A DNA stretch of 39,912 nucleotides from an uncultured Lachnoclostridium sp. (GTDB lineage: Bacteria > Bacillota > Clostridia > Lachnospirales > Lachnospiraceae), in NCBI GenBank assembly GCA_946415315.1, contig CAMKRZ010000027.1, positions 1 through 39,912 of the forward strand. The letters are read 5' to 3'. Both the position numbers and the translations under genes were made by a program. Each line of letters starts with the position of its first letter. Position 1 is the stretch's first letter. This document shows positions 15,416 to 21,572 of this stretch, piece after piece. The notes below the pieces were generated by a model. The model was not told the origin of the DNA. It searched no databases and saw only the letters and a program-made list of their open reading frames with translations.

Positions 15416-15480
15416 TATTTCAGGATATATAGATACATATGGTGGGATTCAGGAAATTCACGGAGAAAGGAAGTAAGAAT

Positions 15481-16140
15481 ATGAAATATCAATACAAAGA
15501 TATGCCTGAAAGCTTGAAAGGAACATACGGAGATTTTTCCAAGAATTTTGGCTTCTCATGGAAGGAATTCGTGGCGACTGTTCCGTCTCCGCTTTTTCTT
15601 GTTACCACATACAAATCCAATGGTATGTCAAATGCCTGCATGCAGTCTTGGGCAACCTTTACAAGTGCCGATCGTGGTAATGGATTTTATGCTATTCTTG
15701 CCAGCGTGAATAAAAACGGACATCTGTATCAGAGCATAAATGAGACAAAAGAAGCCGTTATCAATTTCATGTCTGAAGAGTATCATGCGGCCTGTATGGC
15801 GACAATCCAAAACAATCAGTTTGAAGCAGATGAGATTACAGCTTCGGGTATGTCTGTTGAAAAGGCATCATGGGTTAACGCGCCTATGGTTCGGGAATGC
15901 TTTATGAACCTTGAATGCAGGTTTGTCTGGGAGAAGGAAATCGTACCGGGTGATGATCACGTTATGCTCTGCCTTGAGGTAGTCGGTATTCATATTGATG
16001 AAGATCATGTGGCCGATCGAACCGGAGAAAACGGAATTCTTTACAACATCCACTATCAGATGAATCCGGAAAAAGTAACAAAGACAGGTCATGATTATGC
16101 AGCAGTTCTTAAGAAAAAAATAGATGTTATGGAGTATTAG
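15481..16140 (+). CDS. Flavin reductase-like (FMN-binding split barrel) protein
   Basis: This protein of about 219 residues has the flavin reductase-like fold: PSPLFLVTTYKSNGMSNACM for the FMN-phosphate loop, an FYAILASVNKNGHLYQSI segment, and NEPKE-like ETKEAVINFMSEEY. Such proteins bind FMN and reduce flavins or act on small oxidised substrates. GGAAG is eight bases before the ATG; an in-frame ATG 42 bases upstream has no site. Base composition is more AT-rich than in genes before 15.4 kb. It ends 14 bases before the phosphatase-gene fragment marking the island's left edge. Confidence 0.85.
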   Translation: MKYQYKDMPESLKGTYGDFSKNFGFSWKEFVATVPSPLFLVTTYKSNGMSNACMQSWATFTSADRGNGFYAILASVNKNGHLYQSINETKEAVINFMSEEYHAACMATIQNNQFEADEITASGMSVEKASWVNAPMVRECFMNLECRFVWEKEIVPGDDHVMLCLEVVGIHIDEDHVADRTGENGILYNIHYQMNPEKVTKTGHDYAAVLKKKIDVMEY

Positions 16141-16154
16141 GATCAAAAAACAAC

Positions 16155-16193
16155 ATGATAAAAGTATTATTCATATGTCACGGCAGGAAATGA
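16155..16193 (+). pseudogene. 5' fragment of a low-molecular-weight tyrosine phosphatase gene (island left edge)
   Basis: ATG here opens a frame reading MIKVLFICHGRK and stop. The first ten codons match the start of the complete phosphatase gene at 21069 (MIKILFVCHG): 25 of 31 bases are identical and the last ten (TGTCACGGCA) are exact. Beyond that point the sequences diverge. The fragment ends inside the phosphatase P-loop, before the rest of CX5R. I read it as the original 5' end of the gene, cut off by insertion of the island. Confidence 0.75.
16176..16185 (+). repeat. Left copy of the putative attachment core
   Basis: TGTCACGGCA, the exact match shared with 21090-21099 at the other end of the AT-rich island. 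The longer flanking similarity (16155-16185) is coding sequence of the phosphatase start. Confidence 0.6.
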
Positions 16194-16214
16194 GCTTTTT
16201 TCAGAAAAGCCTTA
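16194..16214 (+). terminator. Weak hairpin after the phosphatase fragment
   Basis: GCTTTT pairs with GAAAAGC around a short loop, followed by CTTATT. It is AT-rich and short, so function is doubtful. It may end the flavin reductase transcript. Confidence 0.35.
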
Positions 16215-16248
16215 TTCTACTAGGGTTTATGGAGGTTTTGAGGTTGGC

Positions 16249-16270
16249 TTTAGACCAGTTTTAGACCAGT
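16249..16270 (+). repeat. Perfect 11-bp tandem duplication
   Basis: TTTAGACCAGT occurs twice in a row without a gap, 64 bases inside the left core site. Confidence 0.9.
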
Positions 16271-16348
16271 AAGACTTAGAAGAAAAGTAATGGGTCAGAG
16301 CCTGTACTATGTAGTCTTTTGTTCTATACATTCAGGTATATTTTAGCA

Positions 16349-16379
16349 AAAAGCATTCTGCGATTTGCAGGGTGCTTTT
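16349..16379. terminator. Strong bidirectional terminator-like hairpin in the island left end
   Basis: A 13-bp stem (two G-T pairs) runs from AAAAGCATTCTGC to GCAGGGTGCTTTT with loop GATTT. A-run and T-run flanks allow termination on either strand. No intact gene adjoins it, so it may insulate the island or belong to a lost gene. Confidence 0.65.
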
Positions 16380-16401
16380 AATGTTTCGCAATACTGACAG
16401 G

Positions 16402-16425
16402 ATGTCGGTTTGAATGTCGGTTTGA
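16402..16425 (+). repeat. Perfect 12-bp tandem duplication
   Basis: ATGTCGGTTTGA occurs twice in a row without a gap, in the gene-free left end of the island. Confidence 0.9.
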
Positions 16426-16602
16426 ATAAAACAGAAAAGAGCGGTTTTAAGATTATTGATTGAAAAGAAAGATATAGGATTGAAGAAATGGTAGCTTTTG
16501 GGTATAGAAACTTTGAAGAAACGGAACCTTTATTGGCTGGTACATTCTTCCGACCGAAATGATGAATCCGATGATTCCCACACTGCACATAACATTTGCG
16601 TA

Positions 16603-16626
16603 GGTGCAGAATATGGTGCAGAATAT
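16603..16626 (+). repeat. Perfect 12-bp tandem duplication
   Basis: GGTGCAGAATAT occurs twice in a row without a gap, 12 bases before the AbiE operator-like inverted repeat. Apart from the listed repeats, hairpins and promoter, I see nothing further in 16194-16751. Confidence 0.9.
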
Positions 16627-16637
16627 CAGTTATGATG

Positions 16638-16701
16638 TATATCTCGGCAAAAATGTTAAAATTACCGATATTTGCATTGACAATTTCACCGTCGAGATAT
16701 A
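16638..16701. promoter_or_regulatory. Inverted repeat, candidate AbiEi operator
   Basis: TATATCTCGGC (16638-16648) and GTCGAGATATA (16691-16701) form an 11-bp inverted repeat with one G-T mismatch. The right arm overlaps the spacer and first bases of the -10 box of the AbiEi promoter. Studied AbiEi proteins repress their own operon by binding inverted repeats at the promoter. Confidence 0.55.
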
Positions 16702-16705
16702 TATT
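16677..16705 (+). promoter_or_regulatory. Promoter of the abiE operon
   Basis: Consensus -35 TTGACA and -10 TATATT are separated by 17 bases, 46 bases before the first codon of the AbiEi gene. Confidence 0.75.
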
Positions 16706-16751
16706 TAAGTAAATATAGGTCAAAAATCACAATTTACCGAGGATTACATCA

Positions 16752-17294
16752 ATGATTTTGTCATATAGCGAAGCAGTAAATAGGTTTGGAAGCGAATACA
16801 AGCTTGGCCGTGCGGTGTCGGATAAAAAAATATATAAACAGGAAGAAGGAGTATATTCTACAGAAAGATATGTGCCTGAACTGGGAGTGATCATGAAAAA
16901 ATACCCAAAGGCTGTTTTGGCGGGCGAGTATGCATTTTATTGCCACGGATTAACAAATGTTATCCCGGAAAAATATGATCTGGCAACTCCATCCAAATCT
17001 GCAAAGATGGCGGATGCAAGAGTGCGACAGATATATGTTAAAGATGATGTATTCCCGCTGGGAATAGAAGAAAAGGATATTGACGGAGTAATGGTCCGTA
17101 TTTATGACAAGGAACGTATGCTTATAGAGTTACTACGAAATAAAAACACAATGCCCTACGATCTTTACAAGGAGATCATCGTCAGATATCGGGAGATGAT
17201 CATGAATCTGGAGATTTGGCGTATACAGGAATATGCTGCTGCTTTCCCGAAGAGCAAGATGATTTCAAAAGCGTTGGATGAGGAGGTAATGTAA
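16752..17294 (+). CDS. AbiEi-like type IV antitoxin / transcriptional repressor
   Basis: This 180-residue protein resembles AbiEi antitoxins. It has an N-terminal winged-helix region (about 1-60), then LAGEYAFYCHGLTNVIPEKYDLATPSKS-type sequence and the C-terminal VRIYDKERMLIELLR segment conserved in the family. In AbiE systems this protein opposes the AbiEii nucleotidyltransferase without direct contact and represses the operon. The stop overlaps the start region of the toxin gene (GTG follows TAA directly), giving the usual coupled order. The toxin gene behind it is broken, so this is an orphan antitoxin. It lies in the AT-rich island. Confidence 0.82.
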   Translation: MILSYSEAVNRFGSEYKLGRAVSDKKIYKQEEGVYSTERYVPELGVIMKKYPKAVLAGEYAFYCHGLTNVIPEKYDLATPSKSAKMADARVRQIYVKDDVFPLGIEEKDIDGVMVRIYDKERMLIELLRNKNTMPYDLYKEIIVRYREMIMNLEIWRIQEYAAAFPKSKMISKALDEEVM

Positions 17295-17652
17295 GTGAAT
17301 TTACATGAAATGATGGATAGTTATGCGGAGGAAGGTCTTACAAGGGCTTTGGCCGCATCTCGAGTATGCCAGGATATAGTTTTGAAAGCATTATCGGAAG
17401 GGCCACTCAGCCATAATGTTACGATTAAAGGTGGCGTTGTAATGCGTAGCCTTACAAATAATAACCGCAGGGCAAGGAATGTACGAATCTTCAACGAAGG
17501 ATATTGTCAGAAGGCGGAGGAATACGTTTAATGATGAGCAGTATCTGAAGCGTGTCTCTGAATCCAGGCAGAGGTGGCTTGATAATGATATTCATGAGAT
17601 TGTATCCGGTATTCTCGCTTTTGTTGAAGGATTATGTTGCCTTAAAGAATAA
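17295..17652 (+). pseudogene. AbiEii toxin gene with internal deletion and frameshift
   Basis: The frame opens with GTG right after the antitoxin stop and reads MNLHEMMDSYAEEGLTRALA through VTIKGGVVMRSLTNN, the usual N-terminus and GG(x)xxR nucleotidyltransferase entry of AbiEii. It then leaves frame and stops at 17531. In another frame, STKDIV and TFNDEQYLKRVSESRQRWL through FVEGL (to 17652) match the expected C-terminus. About 190 residues, including the metal-binding aspartates, are missing between the two parts. The toxin should be inactive. Confidence 0.78.
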
Positions 17653-17687
17653 TACGGACAAGGATGATTTTATGAGGGCAGAGTAGA

Positions 17688-20060
17688 ATGGGAAACTATA
17701 TAAAGGCATATGGAGTTAAGAAACATAACCTTAAAAACATCAATATTTGCATACCTAAAGGAAAACTAACGGCGATTACCGGAGTTTCCGGAAGCGGAAA
17801 ATCCAGCTTCGCATTTGATGTTTTATATGAAGAAGGAAAGAGAAAATATTTATCCATAACCGAATCCCAGTTTTCGCTGGAGACAAGCAATGATTTTGAA
17901 CGCATCGAAGGTTTGTCTCCGACAATCGGAGTGGAACAACGGATAATCAGGCAAAGCAATCCCTTAAGTACGGTCGGAACGAAAACAAGATTAACAAATG
18001 CTTTGGCTTCTTTGTTTTCGGTAAGCGGAGTTACCGATCCTGAATATGATGACGGGAAACCATTGTCCGTAGATATGTTTCAGAAGAATTCACCGAATGG
18101 TATGTGCCTGCATTGTTTGGGTACAGGTGTAAAAAAGGTATTTGATGAGGAAAAAATATTTGCAGACAGTAATGCAAAGTTAAACACGTTATTATTCGGC
18201 TTTTTGGACAGAGGCAAGGTGCAGAAAAAGTACAGGGCGTTCCTGGAACAAAATGGACTGTTTCCTTCGCAAACACTCGGTGAGTTAACAGATGAGCAAT
18301 TGAAAAAATTAAAGTACGGTGATCGGAAAGACAGTTTTCCGGGCATCATGCCTTTGATCATGAATGCTTCAAAATTCAATTTAATAAGCGGGCGTCAAAT
18401 AGAGATTATAACGGGAGAATACGGGAAAAAGATAATATGTCAGCGTTGTAATGGCGTTGGATTAAATCAGATCGCGTCACATACCAGATTGCAGGGCCGG
18501 ACATTTGCTGAAGTGAGCAATATGTCTCTGCATGAGTTGGACAAATTTTTATTAAGCGTAGAAGATGATAAAAACAAAAAGATCATAAATGCGATCAGAC
18601 TGAGAATTCAATATCTGCTTATGCTGGGACTTGGTCATCTGTCAATGTCAAGATCGATCCCGACTTTATCGGGAGGAGAGCTGCAGAGACTTTGTATCAG
18701 CGCATTCATTATGTCTGATTTTGATTCATTGACATTTATATTTGATGAACCGTCAACAGGACTGCATGAGAGAGAGAAGGAAAAACTCATTGAGGTTTTG
18801 AAAAATATTGTGTCTGCAGGAAATACAGTTATTGTGGTAGAGCATGATCAAAGTATCATTTCGATTGCGGATTATATCGTTGAGATCGGACCGGGAGCCG
18901 GAACCGAGGGCGGCGAATTGATCTTTCAGGGCGAATATAAGGATTTTTTAAACTGTGAAAATTCAGTTGTAGCTAAATATCTGAAGGATAGAAAGCATTT
19001 TATTGAAAATTATAAGCATCAAACAAAAAATGCCCCTGTTTTACATTACGATAAGAGACTTCGCATAAGTGGCGCAAAAATTCATAACTTAAAAACCGTG
19101 TCATTGTCGATTCCGTTATATAAACTGGTAGGAGTTGCGGGTGTTTCAGGCAGCGGAAAATCAAGTTTGATAGCGCATACACTCGTTCCGAAATTAAAAA
19201 TGCTGATTCGAAACCGTGTCATACAGAATGAGGATGAAGATATTTATGACTATCCAAGAGAACTTGATGATGTGGAGATTCATGGAACGGAATCAATAAA
19301 TAAGTGTTATGTGATCAACCAACAGCCGATCGGACGAGTGAAAACATCGAGTATTGCCACATATACCGGTGTTTTTGATGTTATTCGAAAATTATTTTCG
19401 CAGACACCGGACGCAGAAGATTTGGGCTTTGATATGAGCTTTTTCAGTTTAAATGCTCAAGGAGCTTGCCCGACATGCAAAGGACAGGGATTCCTGGTTT
19501 ATAATGTCGGGTTTGGTGATATTAATATGATCTGTGATAGCTGCCATGGAACCGGATACATAGATGATGTGCTTGATGTTAAGTACCATAATAAAAATAT
19601 TGCCGAAGTGCTTGAGATGACCGTAAAGGAAGCATGCGGATTTTTCAAAGACGTTCCCCCAATATATCAAATTTTATGTTTACTTGATAAAGTGGGCATG
19701 GGATATATCAAATTGGGGCAAAAGACTACCACGATATCCGGAGGAGAGGCCCAAAGAATTAAATTAGCAAAAGAATTGGGAAAAGGCAGAAATAAAGATA
19801 ATATCTATATATTGGATGAACCTACTGTCGGTTTATCACCGAAAGACTCAGAACATCTTGTTTACTTGCTCCGAGAAATCTGTAATGCCGGTAATACGGT
19901 TATTGTTACGGAGCATGATATCGATGTTTTATCCTGCTGTGATTATCTTTTTGAGTTGGGACCCAAAGGCGGAGATGAAGGCGGTTATTTGATCGCGGAA
20001 GGGACTCCGGAATCATTAAAAGAGAATTCAGATTCTGTTATTGGCGGCTATTTAAAGTAA
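17688..20060 (+). CDS. UvrA-like ATPase lacking the UvrB-binding region
   Basis: This 790-residue protein is built like UvrA but shorter (UvrA is about 940). It has two ABC ATPase units with Walker A GVSGSGKSS at 32-40 and about 484, signature motifs LSGGELQRL near 327 and ISGGEAQRI near 682, and Walker B FIFDEP and YILDEP. The C-terminal zinc module is intact (Cys594, 597, 616, 619), and Cys140/143 and Cys251/254 lie in the first half. Sequence between the first Walker A and Cys140 is too short for the UvrB-binding domain. Such paralogues are not standard repair enzymes; some accompany antibiotic resistance or production. AT-rich codon use marks it as island cargo, 13 bases before the hydrolase gene. 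Confidence 0.85.
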   Translation: MGNYIKAYGVKKHNLKNINICIPKGKLTAITGVSGSGKSSFAFDVLYEEGKRKYLSITESQFSLETSNDFERIEGLSPTIGVEQRIIRQSNPLSTVGTKTRLTNALASLFSVSGVTDPEYDDGKPLSVDMFQKNSPNGMCLHCLGTGVKKVFDEEKIFADSNAKLNTLLFGFLDRGKVQKKYRAFLEQNGLFPSQTLGELTDEQLKKLKYGDRKDSFPGIMPLIMNASKFNLISGRQIEIITGEYGKKIICQRCNGVGLNQIASHTRLQGRTFAEVSNMSLHELDKFLLSVEDDKNKKIINAIRLRIQYLLMLGLGHLSMSRSIPTLSGGELQRLCISAFIMSDFDSLTFIFDEPSTGLHEREKEKLIEVLKNIVSAGNTVIVVEHDQSIISIADYIVEIGPGAGTEGGELIFQGEYKDFLNCENSVVAKYLKDRKHFIENYKHQTKNAPVLHYDKRLRISGAKIHNLKTVSLSIPLYKLVGVAGVSGSGKSSLIAHTLVPKLKMLIRNRVIQNEDEDIYDYPRELDDVEIHGTESINKCYVINQQPIGRVKTSSIATYTGVFDVIRKLFSQTPDAEDLGFDMSFFSLNAQGACPTCKGQGFLVYNVGFGDINMICDSCHGTGYIDDVLDVKYHNKNIAEVLEMTVKEACGFFKDVPPIYQILCLLDKVGMGYIKLGQKTTTISGGEAQRIKLAKELGKGRNKDNIYILDEPTVGLSPKDSEHLVYLLREICNAGNTVIVTEHDIDVLSCCDYLFELGPKGGDEGGYLIAEGTPESLKENSDSVIGGYLK

Positions 20061-20073
20061 AAATGGGGTACAG

Positions 20074-21045
20074 GTGGATATGTTTGAACTGTCAGAAGAC
20101 GGATTGTCGGAAAACGGAATAGATGAGAATGTTATTAATTCAATTGATGATTTTATCAGAGCCAACAGATATCGATTGATGAGAAGTGTTCTTATCATAA
20201 AAGGTCAGAAGATAGTGTATGAATGGTACGGTGAAAAATGTAACAGAGCAACAAAACATGCATTACATTCGATAGAAAAAAACGTTGTAGCGACGGCAAC
20301 AGGAGTATGCCTGAAAAATGGTCTGATCGAAAGCCTCGATATACCGGTAACTCAGATATTGCCCGAGTATTTTAATGATGAGGCAAATGTATTTCATAAA
20401 TTGATCACGTTAAAGACATTACTGACAATGACATCCGGGTTTTATTGGAGAAACGGACCTCACTTGAATGACCCGATGCGTGAGCAGTTAAAACGTTCAA
20501 AAGATTGGCTGCAGGCAATTTCGGACTGCAATATTGTGAATACACCGAATACAGACTTCAAATATAAGGTGACAGATATTTATCTGATGAATGCCTGTAT
20601 TGAAAGATTAACCGGGAAAACGGTATACGACATATTAAATGAATTCATGTTTCCCTATGTCGGAATTGACTGTGACCCTTTTATTCTGACGCCGACCAGT
20701 ACTGTTTATCATGACTTAACACAGGTAAAAGGCTGCATCGAGTTATCCGCGATCGATCTTGCGAAGTTTGGCCTACTTTATTTGAATCATGGAAAGTTAA
20801 ACAACAGGCAGATCATTACGGCTGAATATATTGATGAGGCTACAACCGCACATATTGAAAATTATGGCTATTATTGGTGGATCAATGAGGACGGCAGCGG
20901 ATACAGGGGACTGGGTCGTGGTGGTCAGGAACTGCATGTTTATCCCGGGCATGATATGGTTGTTGTGTTGCAGGCACAGGATTCACCGAGATCGAAATTT
21001 TATACTCCGATCATTACAGATAAAATTTTAAAAGCTTTGAAATAA
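20074..21045 (+). CDS. Serine hydrolase of the class C beta-lactamase fold
   Basis: This protein of about 323 residues has SxxK as HSIEK (Ser66, Lys69), LLTMTSGFYW, and a late GGQELHVYPGHDM in the place of the third motif. The second motif, normally YxN, reads YKV in FKYKVTDIYLMN, so its Asn is absent. No signal peptide is seen. Such enzymes act as esterases, amidases or D-amino-acid peptidases; the altered motif makes the activity uncertain. It starts 13 bases after the UvrA-like gene, so the two form one operon. GTG at 20074 and ATG at 20080 are both possible starts. AT-rich like its partner. Confidence 0.82.
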   Translation: MDMFELSEDGLSENGIDENVINSIDDFIRANRYRLMRSVLIIKGQKIVYEWYGEKCNRATKHALHSIEKNVVATATGVCLKNGLIESLDIPVTQILPEYFNDEANVFHKLITLKTLLTMTSGFYWRNGPHLNDPMREQLKRSKDWLQAISDCNIVNTPNTDFKYKVTDIYLMNACIERLTGKTVYDILNEFMFPYVGIDCDPFILTPTSTVYHDLTQVKGCIELSAIDLAKFGLLYLNHGKLNNRQIITAEYIDEATTAHIENYGYYWWINEDGSGYRGLGRGGQELHVYPGHDMVVVLQAQDSPRSKFYTPIITDKILKALK

Positions 21046-21068
21046 TATAAGACACGGAGGTTTACCTT

Positions 21069-21572
21069 GTGATAAAAATATTGTTTGTGTGTCACGGCAA
21101 TATCTGCAGAAGCGTTGCCGCTGAGATGGTTTTGCGTCAAATGATTGACGAGGCGTGGCCGGGGAGCTTGCCGGAGATCTCCGTGGAGTCGTCGGCGGCG
21201 ACGCGCGAGGAGATTGGAAATGATATTTATCCGCCGATGAAGAGGGCACTGCAGGCGCGCGGGTATGTGTGCCATCACCATGCGGCATGGCAGACGACGC
21301 GGGCGGACTACGACCGGTTTGATTACATCATCGGCATGGACTCGGAAAATCTGTACGACATGCGTAGAATATACGGTGGAGACGCTTCCGGGAAGATTTC
21401 GCTGCTTCGCGCATGGGCGGGTCAGCCCGGCAGGGAGATCGACGATCCGTGGTATACGCGGAACTTCGAGGGAGTGCTGTCGCAGATCGAAGAAGGCTGC
21501 AGAGGATTGCTGTCGGCTCTGGCGCAGCGCGCCTTTTCGGAAAATGTTGACAAACACGGAAAGATGCAATAG
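21069..21572 (+). CDS. Low-molecular-weight protein-tyrosine phosphatase (island right edge)
   Basis: This 167-residue protein has the phosphatase P-loop CHGNICRS at residues 8-15 (CX5R with Cys8 and Arg14) and the general acid in DDPW at 125-128. It should hydrolyse phosphotyrosine or related phosphoesters in the cytoplasm. It starts with GTG, with CGGAGG eight bases upstream. Its first ten codons are AT-rich and nearly repeat the fragment at 16155, while the rest is GC-rich like the chromosome. This supports a hybrid gene whose 5' end came with the island. Its stop codon TAG forms part of the pheST -10 box. Confidence 0.9.
   Translation: MIKILFVCHGNICRSVAAEMVLRQMIDEAWPGSLPEISVESSAATREEIGNDIYPPMKRALQARGYVCHHHAAWQTTRADYDRFDYIIGMDSENLYDMRRIYGGDASGKISLLRAWAGQPGREIDDPWYTRNFEGVLSQIEEGCRGLLSALAQRAFSENVDKHGKMQ
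21090..21099 (+). repeat. Right copy of the putative attachment core
   Basis: TGTCACGGCA, identical to 16176-16185, lying over the Cys-His-Gly codons of the phosphatase P-loop. Confidence 0.6.

Follow-up and report, generated by a model that had tools for sequence, protein, structure and literature searches.

A probable remnant of integrative elements in the 5' end of a Lachnoclostridium phosphatase gene, and a Tn916-type integrase clade found beside the same gene start

Background

Why should the beginning of a low-molecular-weight (LMW) tyrosine phosphatase (PTP) gene be written twice in one genome, with a block of AT-rich genes in between? The window analysed here, a stretch of 39,912 nucleotides from an uncultured Lachnoclostridium sp. 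(contig CAMKRZ010000027.1), contains a short PTP-like fragment that runs almost at once into a stop, and 4.9 kb further on an intact PTP gene (Table 1). A sequence-only reading of the locus had proposed that an island sits in the 5' end of the phosphatase gene and supplies it with a substitute start. Based on comparisons with related genomes, we consider (probability about 0.93) that positions 16155-21069 are the remnant of integrative elements that inserted site-specifically in the host PTP 5' end, i.e., in the codons that lead into and encode the P-loop. The recombinase would have been a Tn916-type tyrosine integrase accompanied by a Tn916-type Xis, and the attachment site of the element would imitate the start of the PTP gene. 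Insertion would then leave the host's own start far to the left as a 12-codon stub, and the right end of the element would provide the ribosome site and start codon along with the opening codons of the gene, in frame with the host PTP body. The window island itself would either have lost its integrase or never have had one.

Results and discussion

Two phosphatase starts in the window

A degenerate pattern describing the 30-base PTP start matched the window genome at only two places, 16155 and 21069, and the reversed control of this pattern matched 0 of 250 genomes. The left fragment (16155-16184) reads ATG ATA AAA GTA TTA TTC ATA TGT CAC GGC AGG AAA TGA, is translated as MIKVLFICHGRK and meets its stop two codons beyond HG; the right start at 21069 reads GTG ATA AAA ATA TTG TTT GTG TGT CAC GGC AAT, and GGAGG is found 8 nt ahead of its GTG. 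As the sequence-only reading had noticed, 25/31 bases are equal between the two (counted by eye), up to TGTCACGGCA, and the sequences diverge afterwards. The intact gene (21069-21572) is the only PTP homologue in the window genome, and joining the flanks of the island in silico yields a single open PTP frame that starts with MIKVLFICHGNICRS. GC content is 0.390 within the island versus 0.504 to its left and 0.552 to its right, and the flavin reductase-like gene on the left ends 14 bp ahead of the left PTP fragment. The AT-rich first codons of the right-hand gene, previously counted in favor of an imported start, turned out to be no evidence at all, because PTP starts are generally GC-poorer than the following 120 nt (0.378 in the first 30 nt vs 0.494 in the next 120 nt, averaged over the 153 PTP starts present in the fetched loci). 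No tRNA genes were found in the window, and a tRNA-targeted island was rejected for this reason.

Table 1 Features of the island and its borders in the window
Feature	Position	Strand	Evidence
Flavin reductase-like gene, native upstream neighbour of PTP	15439..16140	+	PF01613; adjacency in G009, G002, G018
Conserved left element end (overlaps attL)	16152..16530	+	94%/379 bp vs G002 island; 98%/284 bp vs G016
attL, host PTP 5' end, severed after codon 10	16155..16187	+	start-pattern match, relatives' loci
Tandem 11-bp repeats (C/T)TTTAGACCAG x2, putative arm-type sites	16248..16269	+	only window occurrence
AbiEi-like antitoxin gene, cargo	16752..17294	+	PADLOC AbiEi, E 1.6e-74
Truncated AbiEii gene, 78 aa	17295..17531	+	PADLOC AbiEii, profile 1-61 of 265
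UvrA-like double ABC ATPase, cargo	17688..20060	+	TIGR00630, E 3e-206, 687.6 bits, below cut-off 729.8
Beta-lactamase-family serine hydrolase, cargo	20074..21045	+	PF00144
Right element end with ribosome site, start codon	21038..21107	+	90%/70 bp vs L136 right end
attR, replacement PTP 5' end, GTG start, codons 1-10	21069..21098	+	31/31 identical in G013
Intact LMW-PTP, target gene	21069..21572	+	PF01451, E 3.8e-29; 167 aa

Empty and filled sites in related genomes

The uninterrupted arrangement expected by the sequence-only reading for an island-free relative is found in genome G009, where the flavin reductase gene is followed by 65 bp and a single complete PTP with one start, i.e., an empty site. 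Filled sites are seen in two further genomes. The same flank in G002 leads to a PTP start severed after CACGGC, then to 4.5 kb of other DNA and finally to a complete PTP, and the same flavin reductase flank in G018 is followed by a PTP cut at the same place with other DNA beyond, a PTP match of this genome opening a contig at codon 8. The contigs of G010 and G012 open at PTP codons 9 and 8, respectively; such contig starts inside PTP (G018 included) are as expected, because repeats break assemblies.

Both junctions of the window island carry breaks in similarity. At the right junction, G013 is identical to the window at 236/242 bases upstream and at 31/31 bases of the gene start (267/273 for the island end together with the first 31 nt of PTP), and identity falls to 377/474 alignment columns over the remaining PTP gene. 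At the left junction, identity to G002 is 94% over the conserved element end (379 bp, Table 1), as against 67-71% to G002 and G009 over the flavin reductase flank. The replacement start of the window PTP belongs to the island, and the gene would now be expressed from island or element signals. One and the same element end is also seen on different continuations: G005 and G007 have a 100% identical integrase protein and an equal 30-nt start with different DNA downstream: a PTP body in G005, the left end of another element in G007. G003, too, has these last 25 bases and this start, and its PTP body is different. Together with the empty and filled sites, these breakpoints bear out an island in the PTP 5' end with a substitute start.

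Several further arrangements were recorded at these sites. At L082 (G235), L079 (G186) and L094 (G187), two or three PTP-start fragments follow one another in tandem, which amounts to a stack of several elements on a single site. Short units of 156-194 bp combine a fragment of the PTP start with tandem repeats and another PTP start (L042/L098 in G007, L259 in G018, L039, L111, L112, L249); the 194-bp unit (224 columns with the end 30-mer) is identical at 216/224 columns between G007 and G018, both flanks being different, and may have been inherited by vertical descent with insertions beside it later. Longer replacement starts that give the phosphatase an N-terminal extension (MKYENGPQTPSHRT..., MICENEPLTPSPRD...) are present at L046:9076-9576 (G002) and L047 (G025). 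Some starts (L039, L042, L111, L112, L036, L140) carry the P-loop variant CWGN (TGCTGGGGC) instead of CHGN, and the site sequence itself is therefore variable.

A Tn916-type integrase clade next to the phosphatase start

Recombinases whose elements end at the PTP start, which the earlier reading had suggested looking for, were recovered from relatives: nine loci carry, upstream of PTP, a Tn916-type xis together with a full-length int, and in a tenth (L042) the contig stops 52 bp short of int. At L039 a 156-bp unit is placed between int and PTP. The integrase of L033 has both an arm-binding domain (PF02920, E 6.3e-28) and a catalytic domain (PF00589, E 7.1e-34), and its Xis matches PF09035 (E 2.4e-17). 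Profile A1, made of six integrases picked for lying beside PTP, matches the solved integrase domains 1bb8/1b69 and the Int chains 6emz/6en0, and R226, K264, H344, R347, H370 and Y380 are invariant in the six sequences; we take these R, K, H, R, H and Y to be the catalytic residues.

A similarity scan of one genome per species (84,980 species) recovered at least 465 relatives of these integrases, the best 80 of which were taken: a PTP lies within 900 bp downstream in 69 of them and only a PTP-start fragment in 10, and the remaining locus, L106, has neither in 360 bp of downstream sequence. Among viral loci (37 of 46 examined) 2 have a PTP, 8 a fragment and 27 neither, with less than 130 bp of downstream sequence in 11 of these 27. 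In a midpoint-rooted tree of these 117 integrase sequences (80 and 37), one branch parts 91 rows, 87 of them with a PTP or a fragment, from the other 26; the four exceptions among the 91 (L106, L178, L180, L183) have 360, 12, 18 and 36 bp of downstream sequence, respectively, and the 26 outside rows have 2 fragments only, 393 and 745 bp away. The hosts of these integrases include Lachnospiraceae, Oscillospiraceae, Anaerovoracaceae, Eubacteriaceae and Clostridiaceae.

Within the family, 250 evenly drawn genomes served as a sample. Of these, 117 carry a strict PTP start; integrase matches with an E of at most 1e-60, a count that takes in related groups, were obtained in 106. When 61 integrases of this sample were set against the strict start, 27 (in 27 genomes) were located 140-619 bp upstream of one; the strict start was 1.2-10.4 kb away in 10 of the other 34, and none was found downstream on the contig strand in 24. 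Given that the best 30 fetched family-sample integrase loci (30 genomes) all have a PTP downstream, at 151-596 bp, the strict pattern is too narrow; it misses true PTP starts, which accounts for part of the 34 integrases not close to one. As profile A1 was seeded with integrases lying beside PTP, the counts of 79/80 and 30/30 hold for near relatives and not for all Tn916-type integrases. In 43 of the 117 genomes the strict start occurs at least twice or has an int within 700 bp, and 11 further genomes came from the best-30 loci, giving at least 54/250 family genomes that look occupied, a figure to be read as an estimate because two starts on different contigs could be paralogues. A larger spacing was seen in G221, G131, G204, G271, G190, G281, G188, G092 and G265, where the integrase is 1.2-4.6 kb upstream of the nearest strict start and not ca. 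200 bp, and the second int of G029 is 10.4 kb upstream of its nearest strict PTP start.

No integrase of the PTP-linked clade was found in the window genome, the only match, elsewhere in the genome, scoring 33.7 bits. The likely agent of the insertion is this clade of Tn916-type integrases, absent from the window, that is encoded with Xis just upstream of PTP; it appears to use the conserved PTP start as a landing site, and integrase action would be the cause of the insertions in PTP.

The point of exchange

With position 0 defined as the first base after CACGGC, we compared related right ends (18 pairs with PTP in both and 19 pairs with PTP in one) against a baseline of 2440 unrelated pairs. 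Most variable bases up to -18 clearly exceed the baseline in similarity; between -16 and -10 this holds in part, and at -4 and -1 similarity has dropped to the baseline. Left ends common to different flanks (8 pairs, non-independent) are alike mainly from +3, and the bases to about +2 past CACGGC are not common to the element. These two limits place the exchange within about -17 to +2, so that, as far as few and overlapping pairs can tell (18, 19 and 8), strands would be exchanged within ca. 20 bp, in codons 5-11. The break had earlier been placed after TGTCACGGCA: the divergence there is real, and the exchange itself falls not exactly there but within the first 11 codons. An exchange exactly after CACGGC was rejected, as the right-end bases to the left of it are at baseline and +1/+2 are unshared in left ends.

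Repeats at the element ends

Integrase-bearing elements have tandem repeats of 11-12 bp (e.g., TTTTAGACCAG twice) approximately 115-170 bp ahead of the start. Allowing 9/10 matching bases, a period-12 repeat is present in 65/79 right ends and a period-10 repeat in 45/79 (shuffled means 1.0 and 1.4), counts that are non-independent given that the 79 right ends include related elements. A fixed 11-bp period proved too narrow (11/79 right ends), and 9-mers common to the left and right ends of five elements yielded few clear repeats. By likeness to Tn916, we read the tandem repeats as putative arm-type integrase sites. A second set of repeats with a 10-bp period, often containing TATGCC, occurs in 45/79 right ends. 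Most of these lie on the PTP side of the arm-like repeats, ahead of the gene start, and they are possibly Xis sites.

The (C/T)TTTAGACCAG pair of the window (Table 1) is found also in the integrase-bearing element of G005/G007, at its right end, and, if a few mismatches at most are allowed, at the left ends in G002 and G016. The TTTAGACCA pair occurs at 12 right ends, all within one 22-row integrase subclade, and again at the left end of the window island and at those in G016 and (with one mismatch) G002. The right end of the window island is of another kind: over the 35 bases before the start, 27 are equal in L136, the next best of 89 right ends reaching 15 and the median being 11, and the L136 integrase belongs to a different subclade from the TTTAGACCA class.

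Cargo and present state of the window island

The four cargo frames of the window island (Table 1) contain no relaxase or conjugation genes. A full-length relative of the truncated AbiEii is encoded at L043 (265 aa, PF08843). The last 72 residues of the serine hydrolase are 98.6% identical in G013, where this gene too lies directly upstream of PTP, and in the window it is the last cargo gene, ending 23 bp ahead of the PTP start. More broadly, 78 of 114 island proteins of at least 120 aa were scanned (16 of 17 stretches), and the first 25 of the 71 Pfam families include DpnII, LlaJI, DNA methylases, two type I specificity subunits, two AIPR, AbiH, YhcG, two Fic, two SLFN-AlbA, one MobA/MobL and four IS21 helper proteins; PADLOC returned similar names. 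Defence-type genes thus recur, by raw count, in these islands.

Owing to the L136-type right end, the different class of the left end, the truncated AbiEii and the missing clade integrase, the window island is most likely a decayed and accreted remnant, in which two elements were joined at one site and then reduced by deletion, a part of our reading that is less certain than the rest. The sequence-only reading holds in its essentials, the insertion being borne out, with the qualification that the island is not one clean element: its ends resemble different subfamilies and the integrase is absent. CIMEs are cis-mobilizable elements flanked by att sites and devoid of an integrase. The window island, with attL and attR present, no recombinase and accretion at one site, is similar to these but differs from them in that its ends resemble two subfamilies. 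It is probably no longer mobile by itself.

The island could alternatively be a functional non-autonomous satellite, moved in trans by the integrases of related elements. In favor of this are the conservation of the left end (94-98% identity, G002 and G016) and of the right end (97-100%, G013), and the arm-like repeats retained at the left. We regard this as rather unlikely: the left arm class (TTTAGACCA) and the L136-type right end come from different integrase subclades, a cargo gene extends to within 23 bp of the PTP start and takes up the place, 115-170 bp out, of the repeats of integrase-bearing elements, AbiEii is truncated and the genome is without a clade integrase. It is far less probable still that the island brought in the entire right-hand PTP and that the native gene of the host has disappeared. 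The window PTP is indeed only ca. 38% identical to that of G009, as against 67% for the flavin reductase, but its body is 84-91% identical to those of three same-genus genomes, is likewise found upstream of PheS in G013 and G014 (with more DNA between) and belongs to the single PTP of the window genome, and identity to G013 breaks within the gene, after about 31 nt, and not at the gene end. A chance or duplicated piece of PTP on the left, beside AT-rich genes that came without site-specific recombination, would agree with an island in which neither integrase nor tRNA was found, and is hardly credible against the rarity of the start pattern, the empty site in G009, the integrase association, 55 non-identical PTP starts in the fetched loci that have no PTP codons after them, and strict starts repeated on one contig that always share a strand (16/16 contig-strands, spacing 1.7-35 kb; 0 contigs with both strands), and we rejected it. 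A site-specific insertion in the host PTP, followed by decay, is thus the reading that we retain.

Relation to known systems

The replacement of a gene's 5' end by a mobile element has precedents. According to PMC8409611, SGI1-like islands (IMEVchUSA3) sit in the 5' end of dusA, where expression was measured, and the ICE SXT replaces the 5' end of a protein gene, prfC, providing a new promoter and N-terminus. The dusA islands differ from the PTP islands in their target and hosts (Vibrio and others) and in that the present case is built on sequence. SXT resembles the PTP islands in replacing the 5' end of a protein gene, yet it is a conjugative element of Vibrio with an integrase of another subgroup (IntSXT). 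According to PMC8138268, many clusters of the IntTn916 subgroup have fixed target sites, whereas for Tn916 and Tn1549 themselves AT-rich DNA serves as target, with no strict specificity. The PTP-linked integrases are like this subgroup in having PF02920, PF00589 and a Tn916-type Xis, and unlike Tn916 and Tn1549, which lack a strict target.

A search of titles and abstract starts in the open literature did not find elements that target PTP genes. None of the main texts of PMC5357655, PMC5704250, PMC8138268 and PMC12884075 contains the word "phosphatase", and where PMC10763512 and PMC2605562 refer to such a gene, the context is a different one. Because 5'-end replacement is already known from dusA and prfC, fixed targets from the IntTn916 subgroup, and no PTP target from these open papers, the mechanism would be a known one and PTP as a target the new part.

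Conclusions

The window island belongs to a widespread family of mobile DNA in gut and rumen bacteria. A much broader reading, which we find doubtful, would have a large clade of Tn916-type integrases turn the P-loop codons of a housekeeping phosphatase into a main docking site, used in gut and rumen Clostridia by islands with defence genes and other cargo and by some contigs of prophage-like character; with int just upstream and a replaced start, each element would control the host phosphatase, insertion and excision would act as a phosphatase switch, and the non-coding units of 156-194 bp would be the smallest elements of this kind mobilised by an integrase. For these bacteria, the comparisons define an integration site by a gene and ca. 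20 bp, common to many gut and rumen genera, and name an integrase clade that goes with it. Elements can apparently land on the most conserved codons of an enzyme without destroying its gene. In draft assemblies, which in some cases break at exactly the PTP start, this sequence offers a simple marker of where islands end, and the integrases beside it are candidates for genetic work in gut and rumen bacteria.
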